This document shows, in pieces, positions 3,076-43,635 of a stretch of DNA of 45,822 bases (position 1 is its first letter; each line of letters begins with the position of its first letter). The stretch spans positions 1 through 45,822 of the forward strand of contig JAETRI010000020.1 in the NCBI GenBank assembly GCA_021770245.1, written 5' to 3'. The translations under genes were made by a program, and so were the position numbers. The notes beneath the pieces were generated by a model. That model was given only the letters and a program-made list of their open reading frames with translations, searched no databases and was not told where the DNA came from. The DNA is from Lachnospiraceae bacterium. GTDB taxonomy: Bacteria > Bacillota > Clostridia > Lachnospirales > Lachnospiraceae.

Positions 3076-3954
3076 ATGAAAATGGATATTTCGGCGATTG
3101 AAAAAAGAGCGGAGGAGATGCGCATCCTGAATCTGAGGGTATTAAAGGACGGAAATCTGATTCTGAAACGGGACTGGGACGATGAAATACGTAGAAATCA
3201 ATATTCTGTCAGCAAAAGCTTTACCAGCATTGCGGTGGGGATCGCGCAGAAAGAAGGGCTTTTGTCTTTGGACGAAAGATTGTGTGATGTGTTTTACAGG
3301 GAAATTCCGGATCATCCTTCCGCGTTTCTGCAAAAGGCAACGGTTAGAGATCTGCTCACCATGGGTCTTGGACAGGAAAAGCCTGAATTGATGGGAGAGC
3401 AGAGAATCTTTCTGGAGGAAAGAAACTGGGTGAAATACTGTCTTTCCCGTCCGTTTGTGAACGAGCCGGGAACAAAATTTCTGTATAGCAATGCGGGCCC
3501 TTATCTGGCAGGAATGCTCGTGCAGAGAAGGGCGGGCTGTGACCTGATCCATTATCTGATGCCGAGGCTTTTCGAGCCATTGGAAATCAGAAGGACGGTA
3601 TGGGAAACGGATGCGGACGGATTTACCTTCGGATCAGGCGGACTTTTCCTGTGCGTGACGGAACTTCTGAAATTTGGCCAGCTTCTTTTACAGGAAGGGA
3701 ATTGGAACGGAAGGCAGATCGTTCCTGCGGAATATATCCGGGAAGCTTCGGGAATTCGGATTGACAATCAGTCGGAGGGATATGGCTATCTTTTCTGGAG
3801 AGGACCATATGATTCCTACAGGGCGGATGGGAAGTATGGACAGTTTGCCATTATCCTGCCAAAGCGCCATGCAGTGATCGCCATGCAGGCAGAATCCAGG
3901 GATGCTTCGTCGATGATGGACTGCTGTATGGATACGATCGTCCCTCAGTTATAG
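3076..3954 (+). CDS. Serine hydrolase of the beta-lactamase/penicillin-binding fold (class C-like)
   Basis: About 292 aa. The SxxK catalytic motif is S44-V-S-K47 (SVSKSFTSIAVG), and the tyrosine motif is Y137-S-N139 (LYSNAGPYLAGML). A GGLFLC turn and a late GKYGQFAIILP segment fit the last part of the fold. There is no signal peptide, so the protein is probably cytosolic; such proteins are usually esterases or peptidases rather than true beta-lactamases. AGAAAGGTG precedes ATGs at 3076 and 3082; a GTG at 3052 has no ribosome binding site. It follows the SPL gene closely and is probably co-transcribed. Confidence 0.75.
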   Translation: MKMDISAIEKRAEEMRILNLRVLKDGNLILKRDWDDEIRRNQYSVSKSFTSIAVGIAQKEGLLSLDERLCDVFYREIPDHPSAFLQKATVRDLLTMGLGQEKPELMGEQRIFLEERNWVKYCLSRPFVNEPGTKFLYSNAGPYLAGMLVQRRAGCDLIHYLMPRLFEPLEIRRTVWETDADGFTFGSGGLFLCVTELLKFGQLLLQEGNWNGRQIVPAEYIREASGIRIDNQSEGYGYLFWRGPYDSYRADGKYGQFAIILPKRHAVIAMQAESRDASSMMDCCMDTIVPQL

Positions 3955-3973
3955 GCGGCAGAACAGAGTTTGA

Positions 3974-4071
3974 GTACGTGTTAGAACGTACAGATGGGAG
4001 GAAGGTTGAAAGAAGAACACTTTCAACTTCCTTGATTAGAGTGCGTGCTTTGCACGCAGATGGGAGGAAAG
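3974..4071 (+). repeat. Tandem hairpin-RBS cassette upstream of the GH32 gene
   Basis: Three stems in order: GTACGT/ACGTAC (3974-3991, loop GTTAGA), then the linker AGATGGGAGGAA, then GTTGAAAG/CTTTCAAC (4005-4027, loop AAGAACA), a spacer TTCCTTGATTAGAG, then TGCGTGC-TTT-GCACGCA (4042-4058). The last stem is followed by GATGGGAGGAAAG and the ATG at 4072, so the cassette supplies the ribosome binding site. The same order occurs before the NTP pyrophosphatase gene (12,482) and rpiB (36,047-36,207). The stem sequence differs between copies but pairing is kept. Confidence 0.8.
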
Positions 4072-5595
4072 ATGGAAAAACAGATTTTGATTACCAAAAA
4101 GTATCTGCTGATCCCGGTGTGTGTGGAAAAGGATGTGCGTCCGGTTTCTTTTTCCTGCGGGAGTGAAAAGGTTTATGAATTTAATATCCCTGTTAATGAG
4201 GAAAAGGCCGCGCATTATGCTTTCCATTATTTCGCTTCTATCCCGGTGGAAAAATACAAGGGGAAGAAGATGACGGTGGAGGGAGAAGTGCCCGGGGCTT
4301 TTCTGGACGAAATCTGCCTTTCCGACAGCATGCCGGAGACTGCGGAAAATCATCCGATGATCCATTTTACCACGAACACAGGGTGGACGAACGATCCCAA
4401 CGGGATGATTTATCAAAACGGGGTTTATCATCTTTTTTTCCAATACAATCCCTTTGACACCAAATGGGAAAATATGTGCTGGGGCCATGCGGTGAGTACG
4501 GATCTTCTCCACTGGGAGCAGAAGGAAACGGCCCTTTATCCGGATCAGGAAGGGACCATGTATTCCGGAAGCGGGATTATAAACGAAAAGGGGCTTTTGG
4601 GTCTGCCGACGGATGCGCAGATTTATTTTTATACCTGTGCCGGAGGACGGAGCGGATGGAGCCGCGGCAGGAAATTTACCCAGAAGATCGCCTACAGTAC
4701 GGACGGCGGCAGGACGCTTCAGAAGCTGGAAGGTTGCATTATAAAACATATCGTGGAAGAAAACAGGGATCCGAAGGTATATTGGCATGAAGAAAGCAAA
4801 GCCTATTATATGGTTCTCTACCTGGATAAAAACGACTTTGGTATCTTTCGTTCCAAGGATTTGAAAAACTGGAAGAAGAGCCAGACAATTACCCTTGAGA
4901 AAGGATTTGAATGCCCGGATTTGAGAAAAATACCCGTGGAAGGCGGCGGAGAAAAGTGGGTGTTCTGGAGCGCAGACGGTTACTATTATCTGGGAGATTT
5001 TGACGGATATGAATTTAAAACAGACGGGATCAGGCATGAAGCCTATAAAACGTCCATTCCCTATGCCGCTCAGACCTTTTGGGGAATAGAAGATGTAATC
5101 ACCATTCCCTGGCTTCGTACGGAAAATAAGGGGAAACTGTATCGAAGCGGAATGGGACTTCCCAGAAAGATGACCCTGTCGGAGACGAAGAACGGACTGC
5201 GTCTGCGCCTGTCGCATGTAGACGAATTCCTAAAGGCACGGGTCAATGTACACTCTTCTAACGGAGAGGGGAAGGTATTCCATATGATGCAGAAGGAATC
5301 CGCTCTTGAAGTGTGCATCCATATGGAAGATACGGGAGATTTTTCTCTGAATTTATGCGGAACCGTTATTATCTATACGGCATCCTGCGGGAAACTGAGC
5401 GTGGGCAGCGATACGGTGGAACTGGATCGGTCCGCCAATGATTTTTCGATTCTGGCGGATAGGGATATCATTGAAGTTACTGCACAAAACGGCCTGATCT
5501 ATGCCGTTTTTGAGACGGAAAAGGGAAAGAAGAACGGTACGGTTACGGTGGAGACATCGGGAAAAGCGGAAGTGGATATCTACCGGGTGGAGTAA
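4072..5595 (+). CDS. GH32 beta-fructosidase (sucrose/fructan hydrolase)
   Basis: 507 aa, intracellular (no signal peptide). The first roughly 95 residues form an extra domain often seen on Lachnospiraceae GH32 enzymes. The five-bladed propeller starts at HFTTNTGWTNDPNG, with the nucleophile D108 in NDPNG. The transition-state Asp is in RDP (R232-D233) and the acid/base Glu is in EC (E280-C281). A C-terminal beta-sandwich of about 150 residues completes the family length. It releases beta-linked fructose from sucrose or fructans; the fructokinase 0.7 kb downstream could take the product. An in-frame GTG at 4045 lies inside the leader hairpin and is rejected in favour of ATG 4072 after GGGAGGA. 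Confidence 0.9.
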   Translation: MEKQILITKKYLLIPVCVEKDVRPVSFSCGSEKVYEFNIPVNEEKAAHYAFHYFASIPVEKYKGKKMTVEGEVPGAFLDEICLSDSMPETAENHPMIHFTTNTGWTNDPNGMIYQNGVYHLFFQYNPFDTKWENMCWGHAVSTDLLHWEQKETALYPDQEGTMYSGSGIINEKGLLGLPTDAQIYFYTCAGGRSGWSRGRKFTQKIAYSTDGGRTLQKLEGCIIKHIVEENRDPKVYWHEESKAYYMVLYLDKNDFGIFRSKDLKNWKKSQTITLEKGFECPDLRKIPVEGGGEKWVFWSADGYYYLGDFDGYEFKTDGIRHEAYKTSIPYAAQTFWGIEDVITIPWLRTENKGKLYRSGMGLPRKMTLSETKNGLRLRLSHVDEFLKARVNVHSSNGEGKVFHMMQKESALEVCIHMEDTGDFSLNLCGTVIIYTASCGKLSVGSDTVELDRSANDFSILADRDIIEVTAQNGLIYAVFETEKGKKNGTVTVETSGKAEVDIYRVE

Positions 5596-12444: not shown

Positions 12445-12481
12445 TAAGAAGCCCATGCAGGAAAAAAGGGACGGGAGGCAA

Positions 12482-12550
12482 GGTTGAAAGAAGAACGCTT
12501 TTCACCTTTCTGAGTTGAATGCGCGCTTTAGCGCACAGATGGGAGCAAAG
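12482..12550 (+). repeat. Hairpin-RBS cassette upstream of the NTP pyrophosphatase gene
   Basis: GGTTGAAAG-AAGAACG-CTTTTCACC (12,482-12,506, one mismatch) is followed by TTTCTGAGTTGAA, the stem TGCGC-GCTTTA-GCGCA (12,520-12,535), the linker CAGATGGGAGCAAAG and the ATG at 12,551. Order and linker are the same as at 4042-4071 and 36,140-36,207. GGGAGGCAAGG just before the first stem looks like a remnant of a preceding unit. Confidence 0.75.
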
Positions 12551-13156
12551 ATGAGACTCATATATGCGACCGGAAATCCGGGAAAATTTAGGATGATGGA
12601 AGAATTTCTGGATGGATTGGAAATCGGGCTCATAAGTCTCGCAAAGCTGGGAAAGAACCTGAGGGAGCCGGAGGAATGTGGAAAATTTCCATTAGAAAAC
12701 GCGAGGCAGAAGGCGGAATATTATTATAGTATCCTGCATCAGCCCGTTTTTTCCTGCGACAGCGGGCTGCTCATCGAAGGACTCTCTCCGGAGGAACAGC
12801 CCGGCGTACATGTACGAAACAGAAACGGCCGGCGCATGACGGATTCGGAAATGACGGAATATTATGCCGGAATAGCAAGGCGGTTTGGAGGAAAATGTGT
12901 TGCCCGGTATCAAAATGCTGTCTGTCTGATTCTGGACGGGAAGAAGAAATACGAGTATGACGGAGAGGACATCAGCGGAGGCAGATTCTATCTGGTGGAT
13001 GCCCCTGTGGAACAGAAAGAGGAGGGCTTTCCCCTGGATTGTATTTCCGTGGATATGGAATCCGGAATCTACTTCACGCAGAGAGAAGGGATCCCGGGCA
13101 TAGGGAAGGAAAGGGAGGGCTTTCGCCGTTTCTTTGAGGGAGTGATACATGGATAG
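12551..13156 (+). CDS. Non-canonical purine NTP pyrophosphatase (Ham1/RdgB-like)
   Basis: 201 aa starting MRLIYATGNPGKFRMMEEFL, the diagnostic Ham1 start, followed by SCDSGLLIEGL (usually DDSGLEVDAL) and PGVHVRN. The family hydrolyses dITP, ITP and XTP to monophosphates to keep them out of DNA and RNA. The acidic pair is CDSG rather than DDSG, and the C-terminal part (EGISVD, GIGKEREGFRRFFEG) is divergent, so this may be a paralogue with a shifted substrate range. The start ATG 12,551 is supplied with GGGAG by the hairpin cassette; a GTG-type start at 12,515 lies inside it. The last bases overlap the esterase start. Confidence 0.75.
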   Translation: MRLIYATGNPGKFRMMEEFLDGLEIGLISLAKLGKNLREPEECGKFPLENARQKAEYYYSILHQPVFSCDSGLLIEGLSPEEQPGVHVRNRNGRRMTDSEMTEYYAGIARRFGGKCVARYQNAVCLILDGKKKYEYDGEDISGGRFYLVDAPVEQKEEGFPLDCISVDMESGIYFTQREGIPGIGKEREGFRRFFEGVIHG

Positions 13157-16735: not shown

Positions 16736-16796
16736 CCGGCACGAAAAGCCGGGTGGATTTTATGTACGCACAAAAGCGTATGGATGGGAGCCGAAT
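16736..16796 (+). repeat. Two leader hairpins and GGATGGGAG ribosome binding site
   Basis: CCGGC-acgaaaa-GCCGG (16,736-16,752) is followed by TACGC-acaaaa-GCGTA (16,765-16,780), then TGGATGGGAGCCGAAT and the ATG at 16,797. The linker is a variant of the AGATGGGAGCAAAG linker of the hairpin cassettes elsewhere in the window. Confidence 0.6.
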
Positions 16797-17462
16797 ATGA
16801 GACGTACGAGTTTACGATTTGACATTTGGATTTGCCTGGCCCTGGCTTACCTGATCAGTCTGCTGCCCGTCAAGGTGGTGGAGAAAATGATGCCGGCACA
16901 GTATGACAACTATGTGGAAGAGCATACCGTGTCCGCCGGGGAAATCGGCGGGGCCGCCGGAGAATCGGTTTTCCGGGCTCAGAGTGTGGCGGATTTGGAA
17001 GCCCATGAGACATTCACCATTGTATCCGACGGGATCGAATACAGGAACCGGGGAGGCGGCTATTATAAAAATTGGTATATGAATGCCGTAACACTGCCTT
17101 CCGGAGAGCTGGTGGCTGCTTGTATAAACGAGGATGCGGTGCAGCAGACGGGAGAGGATATCTTTACTGGGGATAATATCCTGCCGGTGGGACGCTTGGT
17201 ATATGAAGACCTTTCTGAAAACGAAACCTTTTTGGAGCAGATTGAATATAAAGAGCCTTTGAGCCGAACGGATTTTTACGTGGATATGCTGGGAAACGGA
17301 GGAAAGCTGAGCGAGGAGGATTATACACAGATACCCACCCTGATGATTCAGCTGGGAACGATATTCGTCTGTTTCCCTCTTTTACATATGCTGGGAGCGA
17401 GGTTGGGAATTTTTCCCTATTTCTTCCCGCCTAAAAATAAGAAAGAGGCGGAATGGAAGTAA
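16797..17462 (+). CDS. Unknown protein with two membrane segments
   Basis: 221 aa, not recognised. Residues 8-27 (FDIWICLALAYLISLLPVKV) form an N-terminal membrane anchor and residues 178-205 (IPTLMIQLGTIFVCFPLLHMLGARLGIF) a second one, leaving about 150 residues outside the cell. The outer part contains FTIVSDGIEYRNRGGGYYKNWYMNAVTLPSGELVAACINEDAVQQTG, a beta-rich stretch. Both ends face the cytosol and the tail is charged (KNKKEAEWK). A promoter and a hairpin-type leader precede it. The next gene, also membrane-bound, starts 100 bp on and may belong to the same unit. Confidence 0.6.
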   Translation: MRRTSLRFDIWICLALAYLISLLPVKVVEKMMPAQYDNYVEEHTVSAGEIGGAAGESVFRAQSVADLEAHETFTIVSDGIEYRNRGGGYYKNWYMNAVTLPSGELVAACINEDAVQQTGEDIFTGDNILPVGRLVYEDLSENETFLEQIEYKEPLSRTDFYVDMLGNGGKLSEEDYTQIPTLMIQLGTIFVCFPLLHMLGARLGIFPYFFPPKNKKEAEWK

Positions 17463-17469
17463 AGTCCGC

Positions 17470-17559
17470 GGATACCGTGGGTATAAGATTGAAAATTAAA
17501 ATTTGAAACTCTTTATTGGTAACAGTATCACGGGAAAGCTTGATATACAGGGGGTATCC
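17470..17559 (+). promoter_or_regulatory. Leader with alternative pairing and a decayed cassette copy
   Basis: GGATACC (17,470-17,476) can pair either with the nearby GGTAT (17,480-17,484) or with GGTATCC (17,553-17,559), which overlaps the ribosome binding site of the gene at 17,562 (CAGGGGGTATCCAT-ATG). Between them GGGTATAAGATTGAAAATTA followed by AAATTTGAAACTC matches the linker and second stem of the hairpin cassettes with mutations that weaken the stem. Confidence 0.45.
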
Positions 17560-17561
17560 AT

Positions 17562-23069: not shown

Positions 23070-23141
23070 GATAGGCTGCCGGAAAAGGATTCGGATGCAG
23101 TATCCCGGATTATGCATACGATATATAAAAAGGGGTTAGGA

Positions 23142-24359
23142 ATGGGAATGGAAGGCGGTACGGTGGAAGAAGAGAGAGCAGGCTTTTCGGACAAAGAAAC
23201 CTCCCAGGGGCCTCAGATGTCTGTGGAAGAGGTCTATGCTCTGGCAAAACAATGCAGAGAAGAAAAAGACTATATGACAGAGGCATACTGGTATGAAATG
23301 CTCCTGATGTACCGGAACATAGATAAAGAATGGCTGGAAGCGACGCAGTACCGCTGCGGAAGGGCATATTTTGACGCGGGCAGGGAGAAGGACGCGCTGC
23401 ACTGGTTTGAGAAAGCCGCCTATCTGGGAAACGGGAAGGCGAAGCTCCAGTGCGGCCAGCTATATGTCCAGTCGAAGGATGCCAAGGATCAGGAGAAGGC
23501 GTTATATTGGCTGGAGCAGGTTGCTGAGGACGGAAATCCGGAGATCCAGCACTTGTGCGGAGATATGAACTGCCAGGGCAGAGGTACAAAGGTGAACTAT
23601 GCGCGGGCGTTATATTGGTATGAAAAGGCCGCTCCATGGGGGGATGCAAGCTCTCAGTATGCACGTGGGATGATGTATTATACGGGCGAGGGCATGGCGA
23701 TGGATTATGCCAAAGCATTTGACTGCTTCAAAAAGGCTGCCCGCTCAAATCATGCATCTTCGCAGTATCAGTGCGGATGGATGTATCAGCATGGTGAGGG
23801 AACAAGAAAGAGCATGGAAAAGGCTTTGAACAGTTACGGGGAAGCGGTTGAAAACGGGAGTATGGATGCCCTGTATCAGCTTGGACTGATGTATTATCGG
23901 GGGGAGGGCGTCAAAAGGGATCGGAAGAGAGCCCTGGCCTATTTACAGGAGGCCGCAGGGAAGGGGCAGGCGGAAGCACAGCTTCAATGCGGATGGATGT
24001 GTTACAAGGGCGAAGGAATGAAGAAGGATGCTCAGAAGGCGCTGCAGTGGTTTGAAAAGGCCGGTTACGGAGGCTGCAGGGATGCCTGGCTGACTTGCGG
24101 TAAAATGTATTATAAAGGAACAGGAACGGATCCCGACTATGCCAAAGCGTTGTTCTGGTGTGAAAAAGCGCTTCAGGAGGAGGGCTGCCCGGGAAATGCG
24201 GAAGCAAAATACCTATGCGGCATGATCTACTCTTCCGAAGACAGGACACAGGAGGAACAAAAAAAAGGGCTTCAATTCCTAAAGGAGGCTGCCAAACAGG
24301 GAAACGGACGGGCCCGGTTTGCATTAAGATTCAAATTCCGAAATCAAGAAAACGAATAA
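23142..24359 (+). CDS. Sel1-like repeat (SLR/TPR) protein
   Basis: About 405 aa; ATG 23,142 follows AAGGGGTTAGGA, whereas an ATG at 23,112 has no ribosome binding site. From residue 25 onward roughly nine Sel1 units of about 36 residues are seen, each with an A-x-x-W/Y-Y/F-EKAA core (for example ALHWFEKAAYLGNGKAKLQCGQLY and ALYWYEKAAPWGDASSQYARGMMYYTGEGM). Sel1 arrays are helical scaffolds for protein-protein contacts. No signal peptide. Its position 72 bp after the hemerythrin-receiver gene suggests that it could be the partner of that signalling protein. Confidence 0.85.
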   Translation: MGMEGGTVEEERAGFSDKETSQGPQMSVEEVYALAKQCREEKDYMTEAYWYEMLLMYRNIDKEWLEATQYRCGRAYFDAGREKDALHWFEKAAYLGNGKAKLQCGQLYVQSKDAKDQEKALYWLEQVAEDGNPEIQHLCGDMNCQGRGTKVNYARALYWYEKAAPWGDASSQYARGMMYYTGEGMAMDYAKAFDCFKKAARSNHASSQYQCGWMYQHGEGTRKSMEKALNSYGEAVENGSMDALYQLGLMYYRGEGVKRDRKRALAYLQEAAGKGQAEAQLQCGWMCYKGEGMKKDAQKALQWFEKAGYGGCRDAWLTCGKMYYKGTGTDPDYAKALFWCEKALQEEGCPGNAEAKYLCGMIYSSEDRTQEEQKKGLQFLKEAAKQGNGRARFALRFKFRNQENE

Positions 24360-29850: not shown

Positions 29851-29946
29851 CGCCGCCTTGTGCGGCGGAAAGCGGAGGCTGAAGGAAAAGGATCTACAGC
29901 CTGCCCGGTTTACAAGCCCGTCAAAACGGGCGGATGGGAGGAAAGA
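29851..29946 (+). repeat. Two hairpins and GGATGGGAGGAAAG before the solute-binding protein
   Basis: CGCCGC-CTTGT-GCGGCG (29,851-29,867) and GCCCGT-CAAA-ACGGGC (29,916-29,931) are followed by GGATGGGAGGAAAGA and the ATG at 29,947. The second stem plus linker is the same arrangement as the hairpin-RBS cassettes at 4042, 12,520 and 36,179, with a completely different stem sequence. The upstream stem may protect the downstream mRNA or limit read-through. Confidence 0.7.
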
Positions 29947-31536
29947 ATGAAGAAAAAAGTGTTGGCAATGTTTTTATGCTGCGGACTGGTCATGTCAGGA
30001 CTGACCGGATGCGGAGGAAGTTCAGGGGGAGGTGAGGGCGCACAGAATACGCAGACAGAAAACGAACAGCCCGCCCAGGCAGAGGAGAATACGCAGGAGG
30101 AAGCTTCGGAATCCGCCGATGCGGGCGGAAGCGGGGACAGGCCGACGGTCAGCTTCGTATTTACCAAAGGCGGATTTGAGGGATACCCGGATAACGATGT
30201 GATCCTTCAGAAGATAGAAGAGGCGGCCAACGTTACGCTGGATCATATCGCGCCTCCTTCCGCAAACTATGCGGAACAGGTAAATCTGATCCTGTCAGGG
30301 GACAAATCGGAGCTGCCGGATCTGGTGAGGCTCAATGCGGCCATGTTCAATGACCTGTATGATTATGTGGATCAGGGAGCCCTGATGGATATGACCGAGC
30401 TGGTAAAGGACTGTCCGAATATCCTGAAAAACGTACCTCAGGAGGCATTGGATCGTTGTACCGTAGACGGAAAACTGTATGCGATACCGATGTTCTGCAG
30501 CCCTAACCGTTACAATGTGGTGATCAGGCAGGACTGGCTGGACAATCTGGGTCTGGAAACGCCGGTGACGCTGGAGGATTATCATGAGGTGATGAGGGCG
30601 TTTACCTTCGACGATCCGGACGGAAACGGACAAAACGACACCTACGGATTTTCAGGGATCAGCATGGAGGCCCTTGACTTCCTCTATGGCGCTTTCGGAG
30701 CCATGGCGCCCATTCCCACTTATAATGCGGTCAACACATACTGGTATCTGGAGGACGGCGAGTTAAAGCCTCAGGTTACGAATCCTAAGGTAAAAGAAGC
30801 GCTTGAGACCATCAGCGCATGGTATAAGGAAGGCCTGATCGATCCGGAATTCATCACCTGTACCACGGACGACGATCTGAACAACAAAGCGATGAAGAAC
30901 CAGTTCGGCATCAGCTATCACTGGTGGACATGGGAACCTAAGATCGAAGCGCAGCTGCAGGAGGTTGACCCTAACATTTCCTTCAGCAGAATTGCACCTC
31001 CGGTCGGACCGAACGGGGATTCCGGCGTGCGCGGGGTTAATCTGTGCAACGGCTGCGTTATGATGCTGCAGGGCGCGGACAATCCGGAAGCATGTATGAG
31101 GCTTATGGACTGGATGTATTCCGAAGAAGGTATGATGACCACCTATACGGGCGTGGAAGGAATCCATTGGGAGCAGAAGGAAGACGGGACCTATGTAACC
31201 CTGCCGCAGTTTGACGAGGATGCGTCCTGGATCCAGTGGTATTCCGTGTTTGAAGCGGAATGGCCCCTGCTGCAGGTGGAAACGCCCCTGGTACAGTCCA
31301 GGCGTGATTCCTTCCAGTGGAAGACCATTAACAATGACGGGGACGGCTTAACCACCAAGGCGGAGGTTGAGTACGGAGCCGACCTGCAGGCGTTCTCCAT
31401 GGAAAGCTATACGAATTTCATTACGGGAAAAACTTCCCTGGATGAGTGGGATAAGTTCGTGGAAGAGTGGAACAGCCGCGGCGGCGCACAGTGGACGGAA
31501 GAAATCAACGCAGAGTACAAGGACAAGAGAGGCTGA
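29947..31536 (+). CDS. Extracellular solute-binding lipoprotein of the sugar ABC importer
   Basis: 529 aa. Signal peptide MKKKVLAMFLCCGLVMSGLTGC with lipobox LTGC (lipid-attached C22), then a Gly/Ser/Glu-rich linker (residues 23-62) and the binding domain from TVSFVFTKGGFEGYPDNDVILQKIEEAANV. The large size and motifs such as DGKLYAIPMF, DWLDNLGLETPVTLEDYHEVMRAFTFDDPDGNGQNDTYGFSG and WYKEGLIDPEF match the oligosaccharide-binding proteins paired with LplB/YtcP permeases. An in-frame ATG at 29,749 would hide the signal peptide and is rejected. The DPDGNGQNDTYG stretch resembles a calcium-binding loop common in this family. Confidence 0.9.
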   Translation: MKKKVLAMFLCCGLVMSGLTGCGGSSGGGEGAQNTQTENEQPAQAEENTQEEASESADAGGSGDRPTVSFVFTKGGFEGYPDNDVILQKIEEAANVTLDHIAPPSANYAEQVNLILSGDKSELPDLVRLNAAMFNDLYDYVDQGALMDMTELVKDCPNILKNVPQEALDRCTVDGKLYAIPMFCSPNRYNVVIRQDWLDNLGLETPVTLEDYHEVMRAFTFDDPDGNGQNDTYGFSGISMEALDFLYGAFGAMAPIPTYNAVNTYWYLEDGELKPQVTNPKVKEALETISAWYKEGLIDPEFITCTTDDDLNNKAMKNQFGISYHWWTWEPKIEAQLQEVDPNISFSRIAPPVGPNGDSGVRGVNLCNGCVMMLQGADNPEACMRLMDWMYSEEGMMTTYTGVEGIHWEQKEDGTYVTLPQFDEDASWIQWYSVFEAEWPLLQVETPLVQSRRDSFQWKTINNDGDGLTTKAEVEYGADLQAFSMESYTNFITGKTSLDEWDKFVEEWNSRGGAQWTEEINAEYKDKRG

Positions 31537-31575
31537 CAAAAAGCGAAAGCCGCAGGAGAGCGGCAGAATGTGAGG

Positions 31576-31664
31576 AAGATTGAAAATTAAAATTTTCAAT
31601 CTTACGGATTTGGGCCTATTCCCGTTTTGGGAGGGCCCAAAACGGGAAAGGCATGGGTATAAGT
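31576..31664 (+). repeat. Hairpin-RBS cassette before the ADP-ribosylglycohydrolase gene
   Basis: A 12-bp stem AAGATTGAAAAT/ATTTTCAATCTT (31,576-31,603, loop TAAA) is followed by ACGGATTTGG and a 17-bp stem with one bulged base (31,614-31,631 with 31,636-31,652; inner part CCCGTTTTGGG/CCCAAAACGGG). ATGGGTATAAGT and the ATG at 31,665 come next. The order (second-type stem, GATTTG spacer, first-type stem, ATGGG linker, ATG) is the same as at rpiB although the distal stem is unrelated in sequence. Confidence 0.75.
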
Positions 31665-32726
31665 ATGAGCGTTACGTTAAGGGATAAATTTTTCGGCTGC
31701 ATCTGCGGCTGTCATATCGGCTCCTCCATGGGAGCGGCGGTGGAAGGCATGACCTGGCCGGAGATCGAAGAGAAATACGGGTTCGTGGAAGACTACCTGC
31801 CCTATGAGCATTACGGAAACGGTTGGAAAAGAGAACCCGGAACCACAGAGGACGGCGTGGAACGCCAGAAGCTGATGATAACCGCCATTATGGAAAAGGG
31901 CGGCCGTGTGACGGCGGAGGATGTGCGCGCCGCATGGGTTAAATATGCGAATCCCAATGCGGGCGGATGGGTATCGGAGCCCTTTGAGGGAACTTTGCTG
32001 AATATGGCCAAAACCGGCATCCCGGCGACGGATTTGGGACGTTACTGCGATTACGCGGGACTGAACAGCTTTTCCAGGGCTTGCCATGCGATCGGCCTGA
32101 TCAACGCGGGGAATATCGAGACTGCGAAGGAAGATATCCTGCAGGTCGGACAGCTCTATCAGACCGCCAACAGCAGAGGCCTGAAATGGGCCTGCGTAAC
32201 GGGCGTGGCGATCGCCGCGGGCACCGTTCCCGGGGCCAGCGTGGATTCCGTAATCGGAGCGGTCTATGACAACTGCGACGCGGATCTGGTAGTAGGGGAA
32301 ATAGATAAACAGCTTAAGAAAACCGCCGGGTGTAAGGACATTATCGAGCTGCGCAGTTACTTTGACGGCGTATATAACGGCTTCGGGATGCCCTATCCCT
32401 TCAGTTATGCCAATGAGGTGGTGACAAAGGGAATTACCATTTTTAAGATGGTAAACGGAAACACGAAGGATGCAATCCTGGCAGGCGTAAACATGGGACG
32501 GGATACGGACTGCGTGGCGGCGGTTGCGGGAGGCATTGCAGGGGCTCTCAGCGGTTCCGCCAGCGTGCCGGAGAAATGGATCACCCAGCTGGACTATGCC
32601 ACCAGTGTGAACCCTCACACCAACAGCAGGCGTACGCTGCGGGAGAATGCGGACGGACTCTATGAGGCATTCCAAAACCGCCTGAAAAAAGAGAAGGCTT
32701 ATGTGGAACTGATGGACGTGGAATGA
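31665..32726 (+). CDS. ADP-ribosylglycohydrolase family protein
   Basis: 353 aa from ATG 31,665 (MSVTLRDKFFGCICGCHIGSSMGAAVEG); an ATG at 31,653 adds four residues and abuts the leader hairpin. The family's metal-site motif GVNMGRDTDCVAAVAGGIAGAL is near residue 280. The helical bundle hydrolyses ADP-ribosyl or related N-/O-glycosidic bonds with two Mg2+. In sugar operons such proteins are often better seen as nucleoside- or glycoside-cleaving enzymes than as regulators of protein ADP-ribosylation. The usual early acidic T-D-D motif is not clear (TTEDGVERQKL), so substrate and activity are open. Confidence 0.8.
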   Translation: MSVTLRDKFFGCICGCHIGSSMGAAVEGMTWPEIEEKYGFVEDYLPYEHYGNGWKREPGTTEDGVERQKLMITAIMEKGGRVTAEDVRAAWVKYANPNAGGWVSEPFEGTLLNMAKTGIPATDLGRYCDYAGLNSFSRACHAIGLINAGNIETAKEDILQVGQLYQTANSRGLKWACVTGVAIAAGTVPGASVDSVIGAVYDNCDADLVVGEIDKQLKKTAGCKDIIELRSYFDGVYNGFGMPYPFSYANEVVTKGITIFKMVNGNTKDAILAGVNMGRDTDCVAAVAGGIAGALSGSASVPEKWITQLDYATSVNPHTNSRRTLRENADGLYEAFQNRLKKEKAYVELMDVE

Positions 32727-35988: not shown

Positions 35989-36013
35989 AGCTTACATATG
36001 GCGGCGGCCTGAA

Positions 36014-36207
36014 AGAAAAAGTATTTTCCGATTCCCTGATTGGAAGGCGTGCATTGCACGCAGATAGGAGCAAGATTGAAAATTAACATTTTCAATCTCC
36101 TTGATTTGTATGCGCGCCAAAGCGCGCAGATGGGAGCAAGGTTGAAAGAAGAATGCTTTCAACCTCCCTGATTTGAGTGCGTGCTTTGCACGCAGATGGG
36201 AGCAAAG
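36014..36207 (+). repeat. Three-unit hairpin-RBS cassette array upstream of rpiB
   Basis: In order: a decayed unit (36,010-36,046, ending TCCCTGATTGG); GCGTGC-ATT-GCACGC (36,047-36,061), AGATAGGAGCAA, GATTGAAAAT-TAAC-ATTTTCAATC (36,074-36,097), TCCTTGATTTG; TGCGCGC-CAAA-GCGCGCA (36,111-36,128), GATGGGAGCAA, GGTTGAAAG-AAGAATG-CTTTCAACC (36,140-36,164), TCCCTGATTTGAG; TGCGTGC-TTT-GCACGCA (36,178-36,194), GATGGGAGCAAAG and the ATG at 36,208. All stems are perfect. This is the clearest copy of the family. Confidence 0.9.
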
Positions 36208-36657
36208 ATGATTATAGCGATGGGATGTGACCATGCGGGTTTCCCGCTAAAGGCGAAAGTGACCGCAATGCTGCGGGATCGGGGCGTGGAGGTGATTGAC
36301 CACGGATGTTATAACGGAGAGGTGGTTGATTTCCCGGACGTGGCAAAAAAAGTATGTGCGAGCGTGACGGGAAAAAAGGCGGATAGGGGAATCATGCTCT
36401 GCGGTTCAGGCGTGGGAGCGGCGATTGCGTGCAATAAGATCGCGGGCATCCGGGCCGCCTGCTGCCATGATATCTATACGGCACGCCAGTGCGTGGAGCA
36501 CGACGACGTAAATGTGATTGCCCTGGGAGCGGACGTGGTGGGAATGCAGGCGGCCTGCGATCTGATCGAACGGTATCTGGATTCCAGGTTCAGCGGCGGA
36601 GAGGACTTCGCGCGAAGGATCCGTAAACTCGCGGAAATGGACTGCAGCGTGCGATAG
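36208..36657 (+). CDS. rpiB: RpiB/LacA/LacB-type sugar-phosphate isomerase
   Basis: 149 aa from ATG 36,208 after GGGAGCAAAG; a GTG at 36,181 lies in the hairpin. MIIAMGCDHAGFPLKAKV is the RpiB start, GIMLCGSGVGAAIACNKIAGIRAACCHD contains the active-site Cys/Ser region, and ARQCVEHDDVNVIALGADVVG is the other conserved block. The enzyme interconverts ribose 5-phosphate and ribulose 5-phosphate, or, in LacAB-like members, aldose 6-phosphates such as allose or galactose 6-phosphate. The sugar operon context favours a role on the imported sugar rather than housekeeping. Confidence 0.9.
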   Translation: MIIAMGCDHAGFPLKAKVTAMLRDRGVEVIDHGCYNGEVVDFPDVAKKVCASVTGKKADRGIMLCGSGVGAAIACNKIAGIRAACCHDIYTARQCVEHDDVNVIALGADVVGMQAACDLIERYLDSRFSGGEDFARRIRKLAEMDCSVR

Positions 36658-39950: not shown

Positions 39951-40000
39951 CGCGTTCGTGAATTTCGCATCGCACAGCCGCGCAGGACGCGGCATGAAAA
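39951..40000 (+). repeat. Orphan hairpin-leader copy after the mannosidase gene
   Basis: GCCGC-gcaggac-GCGGC (39,977-39,993) followed by ATGAAAAGATCC shares the 15 bases GGACGCGGCATGAAA with the leader of nth (from 43,614). Before it, GAAATCGC...AATTTCGC recalls the GAGAAATCGC/GCGATTTCTC stem at nth. No gene starts here, so it looks like a decayed or stranded copy. Confidence 0.5.
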
Positions 40001-43560: not shown

Positions 43561-43635
43561 TGAGAAATCGCACGCGCGATTTCTCAGACATGAATCGAAG
43601 ATCTGCCGCAAAGGACGCGGCATGAAAGGGTTAAG
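43561..43635 (+). repeat. Two hairpins and second-type leader before nth
   Basis: TGAGAAATCGC-ACGC-GCGATTTCTCA (43,561-43,586, 11-bp perfect stem) is followed by GACATGAATCGAAGATC, TGCCGC-aaaggac-GCGGCA (43,604-43,622), TGAAAGGGTTAAG and the ATG at 43,636. The last stem and tail match those before the dehydrogenase gene (35,058-35,085) and the orphan copy at 39,977. Confidence 0.7.

Follow-up and report, generated by a model that had tools for sequence, protein, structure and literature searches.

Small dispersed repeats of bacterial genomes are usually thought to sit where little harm results. Elements of the IS200/IS605 and REP/RAYT kinds have terminal hairpins, internal guide pairing and a short target motif, of which a further copy forms the right end. 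Translational riboswitches, RNA thermometers and structured standby sites hold the SD and an anti-SD in competing helices upstream of the AUG. The nearest described systems that we found, as far as the relevant parts of their published accounts go, are the BOX, RUP and SPRITE repeats of S. pneumoniae and the TAACTGA repeats of Beggiatoaceae. In the sections used here the former are judged mobile and over-represented between convergent genes, and the BOX-encoded ORFs are said to be without good candidate SDs (PMC3049150). The latter, in the portion of the account that concerns them, are tandem repeats of unknown function, mostly forward and mostly just 5' of start codons, with 169 sets in one genome and an SD in ~10% of the repeat-bearing intergenic regions (PMC4679880).

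Here we describe a family of cassettes noticed in a window of 45,822 nt (the whole stretch of DNA analysed) from a Lachnospiraceae bacterium. We found no description of this family in the literature searched (open-licence PMC papers, partly covered). The original prediction had reported hairpin cassettes that carry the RBS of unrelated genes; this observation is confirmed, and the family proves larger than first noted. We consider it probable, at roughly 70%, that these are small, non-coding, mobile cassettes, copied and inserted into the spacer between SD and start codon and bringing an RBS with them.

Cassettes upstream of start codons in the window

Copies were scored with R1, a covariance model built from 22 copies. 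Each was trimmed upstream of the start codon to keep position out of the model; the copies themselves came from loci found by an ATG-containing pattern (its first 24 genome places). Alternating A and B hairpins had been described before rpiB (LacAB_rpiB by Pfam, PF02502; 36208..36657, + strand, like all the window features in this section whose coordinates are joined by two dots). The array there indeed reads A-B-A-B-A and ends 3 nt before the ATG at 36208. Its first unit (36010..36072, R1 43.1 bits) has a weak B part, the A hairpin GCGTGC/GCACGC and the SD GATAGGAG; the second (36069..36138, 88.7 bits) is made of B GATTGAAAATTAACATTTTCAATC, linker TCCTTGATTTG, A TGCGCGC/GCGCGCA and SD GATGGGAG; the third (36135..36204, 94.3 bits, also folded) has B GGTTGAAAG/CTTTCAACC, then TCCCTGATTTGAG, A TGCGTGC/GCACGCA and again GATGGGAG. 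The same unit is found, as had been claimed, at two further start codons. Before the GH32 gene (PF00251), an upstream A hairpin GTACGT/ACGTAC with its own SD (3974..4001, from the sequence) is followed by a B-A unit (3999..4068, 84.9 bits) ending 3 nt before the ATG at 4072, and a single B-A unit (12477..12547, 78 bits) lies 3 nt before the ATG at 12551 of a Ham1-like NTP pyrophosphatase gene (PF01725).

The remaining copies are less regular. Of the shorter forms reported before 16,797 and 29,947, the latter is a divergent unit (29872..29942, 36.1 bits; B GGCTG../CAGCC, A GCCCGT/ACGGGC, SD GATGGGAG) preceding a solute-binding protein gene (PF01547) with its ATG at 29947. The former, which precedes the ORF at 16797, consists of GATGGGAG and an A hairpin that has become degenerate (16763..16796, read by eye); R1 gives no match there at E≤5. 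The copy before the ADP-ribosylglycohydrolase ATG at 31665 had been counted as the same unit, but it belongs to a sister class, class D (31573..31664; from the sequence, fold z −6.45): the B hairpin is as in the main unit (GATTGAAAATTAAAATTTTCAATC), a long hairpin CCCGTTTTGGGAGGGCCCAAAACGGG and another SD, GGGTATAAG, follow, and the R1 match is weak (29 bits at 31573-31635).

Searched with up to 3 mismatches, GCAGATGGGAGCAAAGATG gave 4 matches against a mean of 0.01 in dinucleotide shuffles; shorter pieces alone were less striking (11 against 5.4 and 5 against 1.4 in shuffles). Rfam 15 (cmscan), used with gathering and with permissive thresholds, returned no match over the window, where the best E was 3.1 at 3900-4100, and none at E≤0.5 in the loci of four relatives.

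Two other features of the window were seen along the way. Direct repeats with a 108-nt spacing lie at 23655-24018, inside the ORF 23112-24359, and are presumably of the Sel1/TPR type. Two near-identical 23-nt copies of GCCGC..GGACGCGGCATGAAA, each a short hairpin ending in ATGAAA, stand at 39977-39999 and 43605-43627 and perhaps represent another leader type.

Anatomy, pairing and translation

A unit of the main family is ~66-75 bp long. It opens at the 5' end with the B hairpin, from which the linker CUCCC-UGAUUUG leads to the A hairpin; GAUGGGAG comes next, and the AUG follows after 5-6 nt. In DNA letters, the B hairpin is mostly G-N-N-TGAAAG ... CTTTCA-N-N-C, the linker after it is CTCCC then TGATTTG(A/T)(A/G), and the A hairpin (stem of 6-7 bp, loop of 3-4 nt) is followed by GAT, GGGAG, mostly 5-6 nt and ATG. 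The hairpins had been held not to be terminators, and by eye the A hairpin indeed leads into GATGGGAGCAA and the start codon with no T run. The SD GGGAG has its complement, CTCCC, in the 5' part of the linker, a point absent from the earlier description. A further SD-like GGGAG or GGAGG often occurs upstream of B, and the linker CTCCC can pair either with the downstream SD, around A, or with the upstream one, around B.

The stems had been described as each having its exact complement. This is nearly right: in alignment A3 (22 copies), fitted to the structure as were A6 and A7, 98.6% of cells form standard pairs, but the copy at 12482-12550 folds no better than its shuffles (z −0.02), whereas the other three folded copies do. 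Over 69 copies from five genomes (A6), 94.2% of cells are paired, 17 of 20 pairs show changes on both sides, and such cells number 123 against a mean of 29.9 after shuffling; when the two sides are offset by one to three columns, the pairing falls to 35-54%. Copies from other genera (A7) are 93.3% paired, with 102 both-side-changed cells against 31.9 in shuffles, and among their 34 distinct copies one pair of the A stem occurs 16 times as C-G and 16 times as G-C. A sequence-only alignment of 42 copies from outside the source genome and its sister species, folded de novo, recovered the A hairpin, in which 5 of 6 pairs are changed on both sides; B and the outer CUCC/GGGA helix were not recovered from it, a loss that we think is due to MAFFT shifting the B arms. 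The statement that pairing is selected while sequence is not is supported for the stems, but not for the linker CUGAUUUG and GAUGGGAG, which are conserved in sequence across genera. The pairing of the stems could equally serve as single-stranded DNA during mobility.

A cis-regulatory RNA family would also place an SD and its complement in this way. The linker CUCCC would pair with the upstream SD or with the gene's own, under the control of a protein, a metabolite or temperature, and the family would have spread into a large regulon. We hold this to be a possible but rather unlikely account. Linker UGAUUUG and GAUGGGAG are conserved in copies from 13 genera, the own genus included, as one would expect of a switch, and the outer CUCC/GGGA helix is 87.7-98.9% paired, its C-to-U changes keeping G-U pairs. 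Yet A6, A7 and A8 all show it as the weakest of the three helices, with one pair that is non-standard in 29 sequences of the sister species. Further in favour of a switch, a 4-mer fully complementary to the anti-SD is found upstream of B more often than in shuffles, in 68 of 108 copies in A4 (43.7 in shuffles), 43 of 60 in A6 (23.6), 29 of 53 in A8 (14.5) and 9 of 18 in A7 (4.3), where shuffles reach the observed 9; arrays and SD-like sequence also inflate all these counts.

The downstream genes argue against such a switch. They had been said to share no pathway, and Pfam bears this out for 30 proteins (28 directly after a main-family unit plus those at 16797, which has no Pfam match, and at 31665), which belong to unrelated processes with sugar, nucleotide, isoprenoid, cofactor, lipid, tRNA, replication, transport and regulatory functions. 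Housekeeping genes that bear a cassette are, by names given in part by Pfam, coaD, dxr, uppS, ispH, ispD, cdsA, holA, rpiB and others. Nor does the predicted accessibility of the SD set these genes apart: it is 0.42 for 39 genes of the sister species and 0.48 for 68 of the source genome, against 0.44 for 150 other genes of the sister species (Mann-Whitney p = 0.59 against ordinary genes). Sequestration of the SD as a general repressive device was rejected on this equality, and the idea that the elements act on translation start stands for their position alone. The equal predicted accessibility would fit a translation-neutral passenger and would also be compatible with a switch.

Two other readings of the unit were discarded. 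A kink-turn in the linker finds no consistent GA pairs (by eye). The linker holds UGA stop codons, and a leader peptide running from NTG AAA in the B arm to the UGA of the linker was considered and rejected because the frame is not conserved: NTGAA is present in the B arm of 100/122 (A4), 55/69 (A6), 32/36 (A7) and 65/90 (A8) rows, and its frame ends in the linker in 55/100, 26/55, 11/32 and 32/65 of these, respectively.

Other cassette classes were seen besides class D. Class C, which likewise bears an SD, is made of the hairpin GTTTGAAAC-TACG-GTTTCAAAC, a TCTTTATTGGTGGCAGTATCG hairpin and AGGGGGTATAAG. It occurs on the minus strand of L024, 5' of the unit at 1507-1576, at L069 492-575 and, in part, at 17481-17560 of the window; it too precedes start codons and is arrayed together with the main cassette. 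Class E consists of a GGACTTTGTGAC...GTCCCAAAGT hairpin, a GCCGC/GCGGC hairpin, GGAATGAGAGGAAAA and ATG, and was seen in the sister species at L218 5973 (minus), L235 3127 (minus) and L238 14809.

Copy number, range and position

The source genome (G000, 4.3 Mb) and that of a sister species (G011), both assemblies being 96-97% complete, carry the family in high copy. The SD-plus-start pattern occurs 24 times in the whole source genome and never when read backwards. R1 gives 158 matches there at E≤1 (150 of 2325 candidates scored) and 90 in 722 kb of the sister species, on contigs chosen mostly for having matches. R2, a second model built from diverse copies, gives 159 and 163 matches, respectively, at E≤0.01, the E-values of both models being rough. 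It finds 15, 17, 14 and 8 matches in four relatives (G001, G002, G010 and G012) and none in seven further members of the genus. A survey of the family at E≤1e-4, with 12 candidates scored per genome and stricter filters, found divergent copies in 18 of 397 genomes and 16 of 334 genera, the own genus included; in an order-wide draw, the 10 matching genomes of 392 all belong to that bacterial family.

Neither an exact-pattern search of viral contigs nor a plasmid search with the GH32 leader gave any match, and the rpiB leader gave one 55-nt match of 80.7% in an UNVERIFIED phage record from faeces. The stretch concerned, positions 16739-16794 of the unannotated record MT836618.1 (L278), holds a related B hairpin leader, another hairpin and GAGGAGAAAAGCATG before an ATG, and may be mis-assigned bacterial DNA.

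The covariance model search proposed earlier returned many matches directly 5' of start codons, besides the both-side stem changes above shuffles reported above. Among the hand-picked array ends of the source genome with enough sequence, 62 of 89 lie within −3..8 nt of the start of an ORF of at least 100 codons, against 11% for random positions and 2/87 on the opposite strand; this is not the random spread relative to start codons and strand that would have spoken against the original prediction. The 25 of 92 ends that do not abut an ORF were read one by one. In 11 of them a further unit follows and in 4 a sister cassette; 2 are truncated, and 1 lies close to an ATG that opens a short frame. 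This leaves 7 true exceptions, away from a start codon (L005, L037, L085, L094, L107, L110, L121). In the sister species, on contigs chosen mostly because of matches, 48 of 68 arrays abut an ORF start and 20 do not, several of these running on.

Position was also read in sequences selected by other means. A pattern free of the start codon found 10 stretches in genome contigs (seven from CANSTU01, apparently the sister species' own, and one each from three other assemblies), all with an ATG 5-6 nt after GGGAG; the frames that follow have at least 244 codons in nine and 48 in one. Of 56 matches in four low-copy relatives, 30 copies were retrieved, and 29 of these have an ATG within ~10 nt (by eye). 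For other genera, 26 distinct copies read by eye comprise 21 at an ATG, 1 at a GTG, 2 that run on and 2 unclear. In 86 of 114 element genes the SD stands 5-6 nt from the AUG. The same spacing was found at 70 of 244 control starts, which are simple ORF calls including wrong ones, with a slightly different definition of the SD motif.

Mobility and the relation to known systems

The suggestion of a mobile or amplifying element is well supported by the copy number, by near-identical units at unlinked loci and by orthologous sites that are occupied in one species and empty in the other. We compared 96 units of the source genome, omitting one locus present twice and four at contig ends; 36 pairs of units from different loci, involving 21 units, are at least 95% alike. 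Such units are 95-100% alike over ~65 nt and have unrelated flanks: over 80 nt these are 0.50-0.69 alike, bar three, all upstream, in which another cassette lies (0.80, 0.95, 0.97). By eye, eight of the 11 members of a young 75-nt subfamily end 4 nt before an ATG, two run into a hairpin beginning GTATGAAAG and one has no nearby ATG. An SD-like GAGAGG, GGGTAT, GGGAGCC or GGGGGAT stands at the left joint of nine (by eye; L107 and L110 lack it), and the distance from this old SD to the joint varies from 2 to 5 nt.

Occupied and empty sites were compared in one species pair and a few outgroups, as opposed to strains, and two of six aligned loci, ispH and L098, are clean. At ispH, 101 nt (A-B-A) lie between the native SD and the ATG in the source genome and are absent in the sister species, where the two genes apparently share one base; the flanks are alike at 105/118 and 112/120 positions. 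At L098, 226 nt with three cassettes separate GAGAAG from the ATG in the source genome, against 4 nt in the sister species. The loci of trkA, GDPD, cdsA and coaD also point towards empty sites, but their alignments are gapped and were read by eye. The coaD leader of the source genome has an A hairpin and three B-A units; by eye, no such unit was seen in the coaD leaders of seven other genus members, nor any cassette in the cdsA leaders of the seven genus members read. That sister species differ in cassette presence at orthologous genes is a further point against a switch.

Orthologues with at least 75% identity were found in the sister-species sequence (722 kb and five loci) for 17 of 90 element genes of the source genome, and several of these pairs bear cassettes in both species, with different stems or unit numbers. 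The likeness of orthologous units, measured at four loci, is 0.69, 0.74, 0.75 and 0.79, close to that of random pairs; the corresponding medians for other loci of the source genome are 0.73, 0.77, 0.72 and 0.72. Only the uppS units are somewhat above background, 13 of 101 other loci being closer. Such low likeness alone proves no replacement, as neutral divergence may be high. Homogenisation within a genome was looked for and not seen between the sister species (medians of 0.73 and 0.71 within, 0.71 between).

Passive recombination would require no dedicated mobility. Gene conversion over short homologies between SD-like repeats, or replication slippage, would produce copies, and selection would keep just those restoring an SD at the start codon. 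We regard this as quite improbable, since unlinked units are so nearly identical within unrelated flanks and cassettes occur at sites empty in the sister species. Some observations do fit it. The Y1 transposase family PF01797 has no match in either high-copy genome (matches are present in G001, G002, G007, G009, G010 and G012), and reverse transcriptase, PF00078, has none in the sister species and 3 in the source genome. Moreover, units are more alike within a locus (medians 0.84 and 0.79) than between loci (0.73 and 0.71), hence local duplication also happens. It also speaks against mobile cassettes that units nearer the ATG look younger in just 15 of 22 arrays, a weak trend, and that no clear target-site duplication was found; none is visible by eye at the ispH or L098 joints.

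For the mobile cassettes that we favour, we infer that the copies arise by active transposition and that the SD-AUG spacer is a target of insertion, as opposed to a place where insertion is merely tolerated. A cassette would enter the short spacer between a gene's SD and its start codon, the GGGAG of its 3' end would serve as the new SD, in most cases 5-6 nt from the AUG, and the UGA stops of its linker could end translation of the upstream gene; with this new SD and these stops, an insertion would tend to leave the gene translatable. The displaced native SD would turn into the upstream SD, and repeated insertion together with local duplication of units would build (A-B)n-A arrays. Several cassette classes coexist, with the B hairpin in common and a different second hairpin and SD.

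One might speculate further, though we think it unlikely, that the element is directed by a guide: the internal CUCCC would pair with the target SD in single-stranded DNA (or RNA) and the element would insert just 3' of it, the GGGAG of the right end acting both as cleavage motif and as new SD, so that leaders would be rewired genome-wide with the genes unbroken. As neither Y1 transposase nor reverse transcriptase tracks the copies, such an element would use another enzyme.

The cassettes lie in a particularly sensitive part of a gene, the few bases from SD to start, and supply the RBS of housekeeping genes. If our reading is true, translation signals in these bacteria would be portable, with differences even from one close relative to the next. 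The family would then be a test bed for how insertion picks SD sequences, and its natural leader swaps would allow the effect of SD-flanking hairpins on initiation to be tested.

How, then, do these cassettes relate to known systems? Like translational riboswitches, thermometers and standby sites, they have an SD and an anti-SD in competing helices before the AUG; unlike these, they are tied to no single pathway, are often in tandem and are gained or lost at orthologous genes. With IS200/IS605 and REP/RAYT they share hairpins and an internal CUCCC able to pair with the right-end GGGAG, a conserved pairing that would be expected equally of an SD switch, whereas PF01797 is missing from both high-copy genomes. 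Since the layout of hairpin, guide and target resembles IS200/IS605 and the defining enzyme was not found, we class the family among small interspersed mobile repeats. It differs from a MITE in that its ends are two different hairpins, with no target-site duplication visible by eye. Within the parts of the accounts cited above, the cassettes are dispersed, structured, small and in high copy like BOX-type repeats. Unlike BOX, RUP and SPRITE as described there, they lie at start codons, have a single orientation and provide an SD, and the abutment of array ends on start codons, nearly all on one strand, contrasts with the enrichment between convergent genes noted for BOX. The TAACTGA repeats, on the same partial basis, likewise sit at gene starts, in tandem and mostly forward; they are heptamers with little SD character, whereas the cassette is a two-hairpin element of 66-75 nt that carries its own SD.
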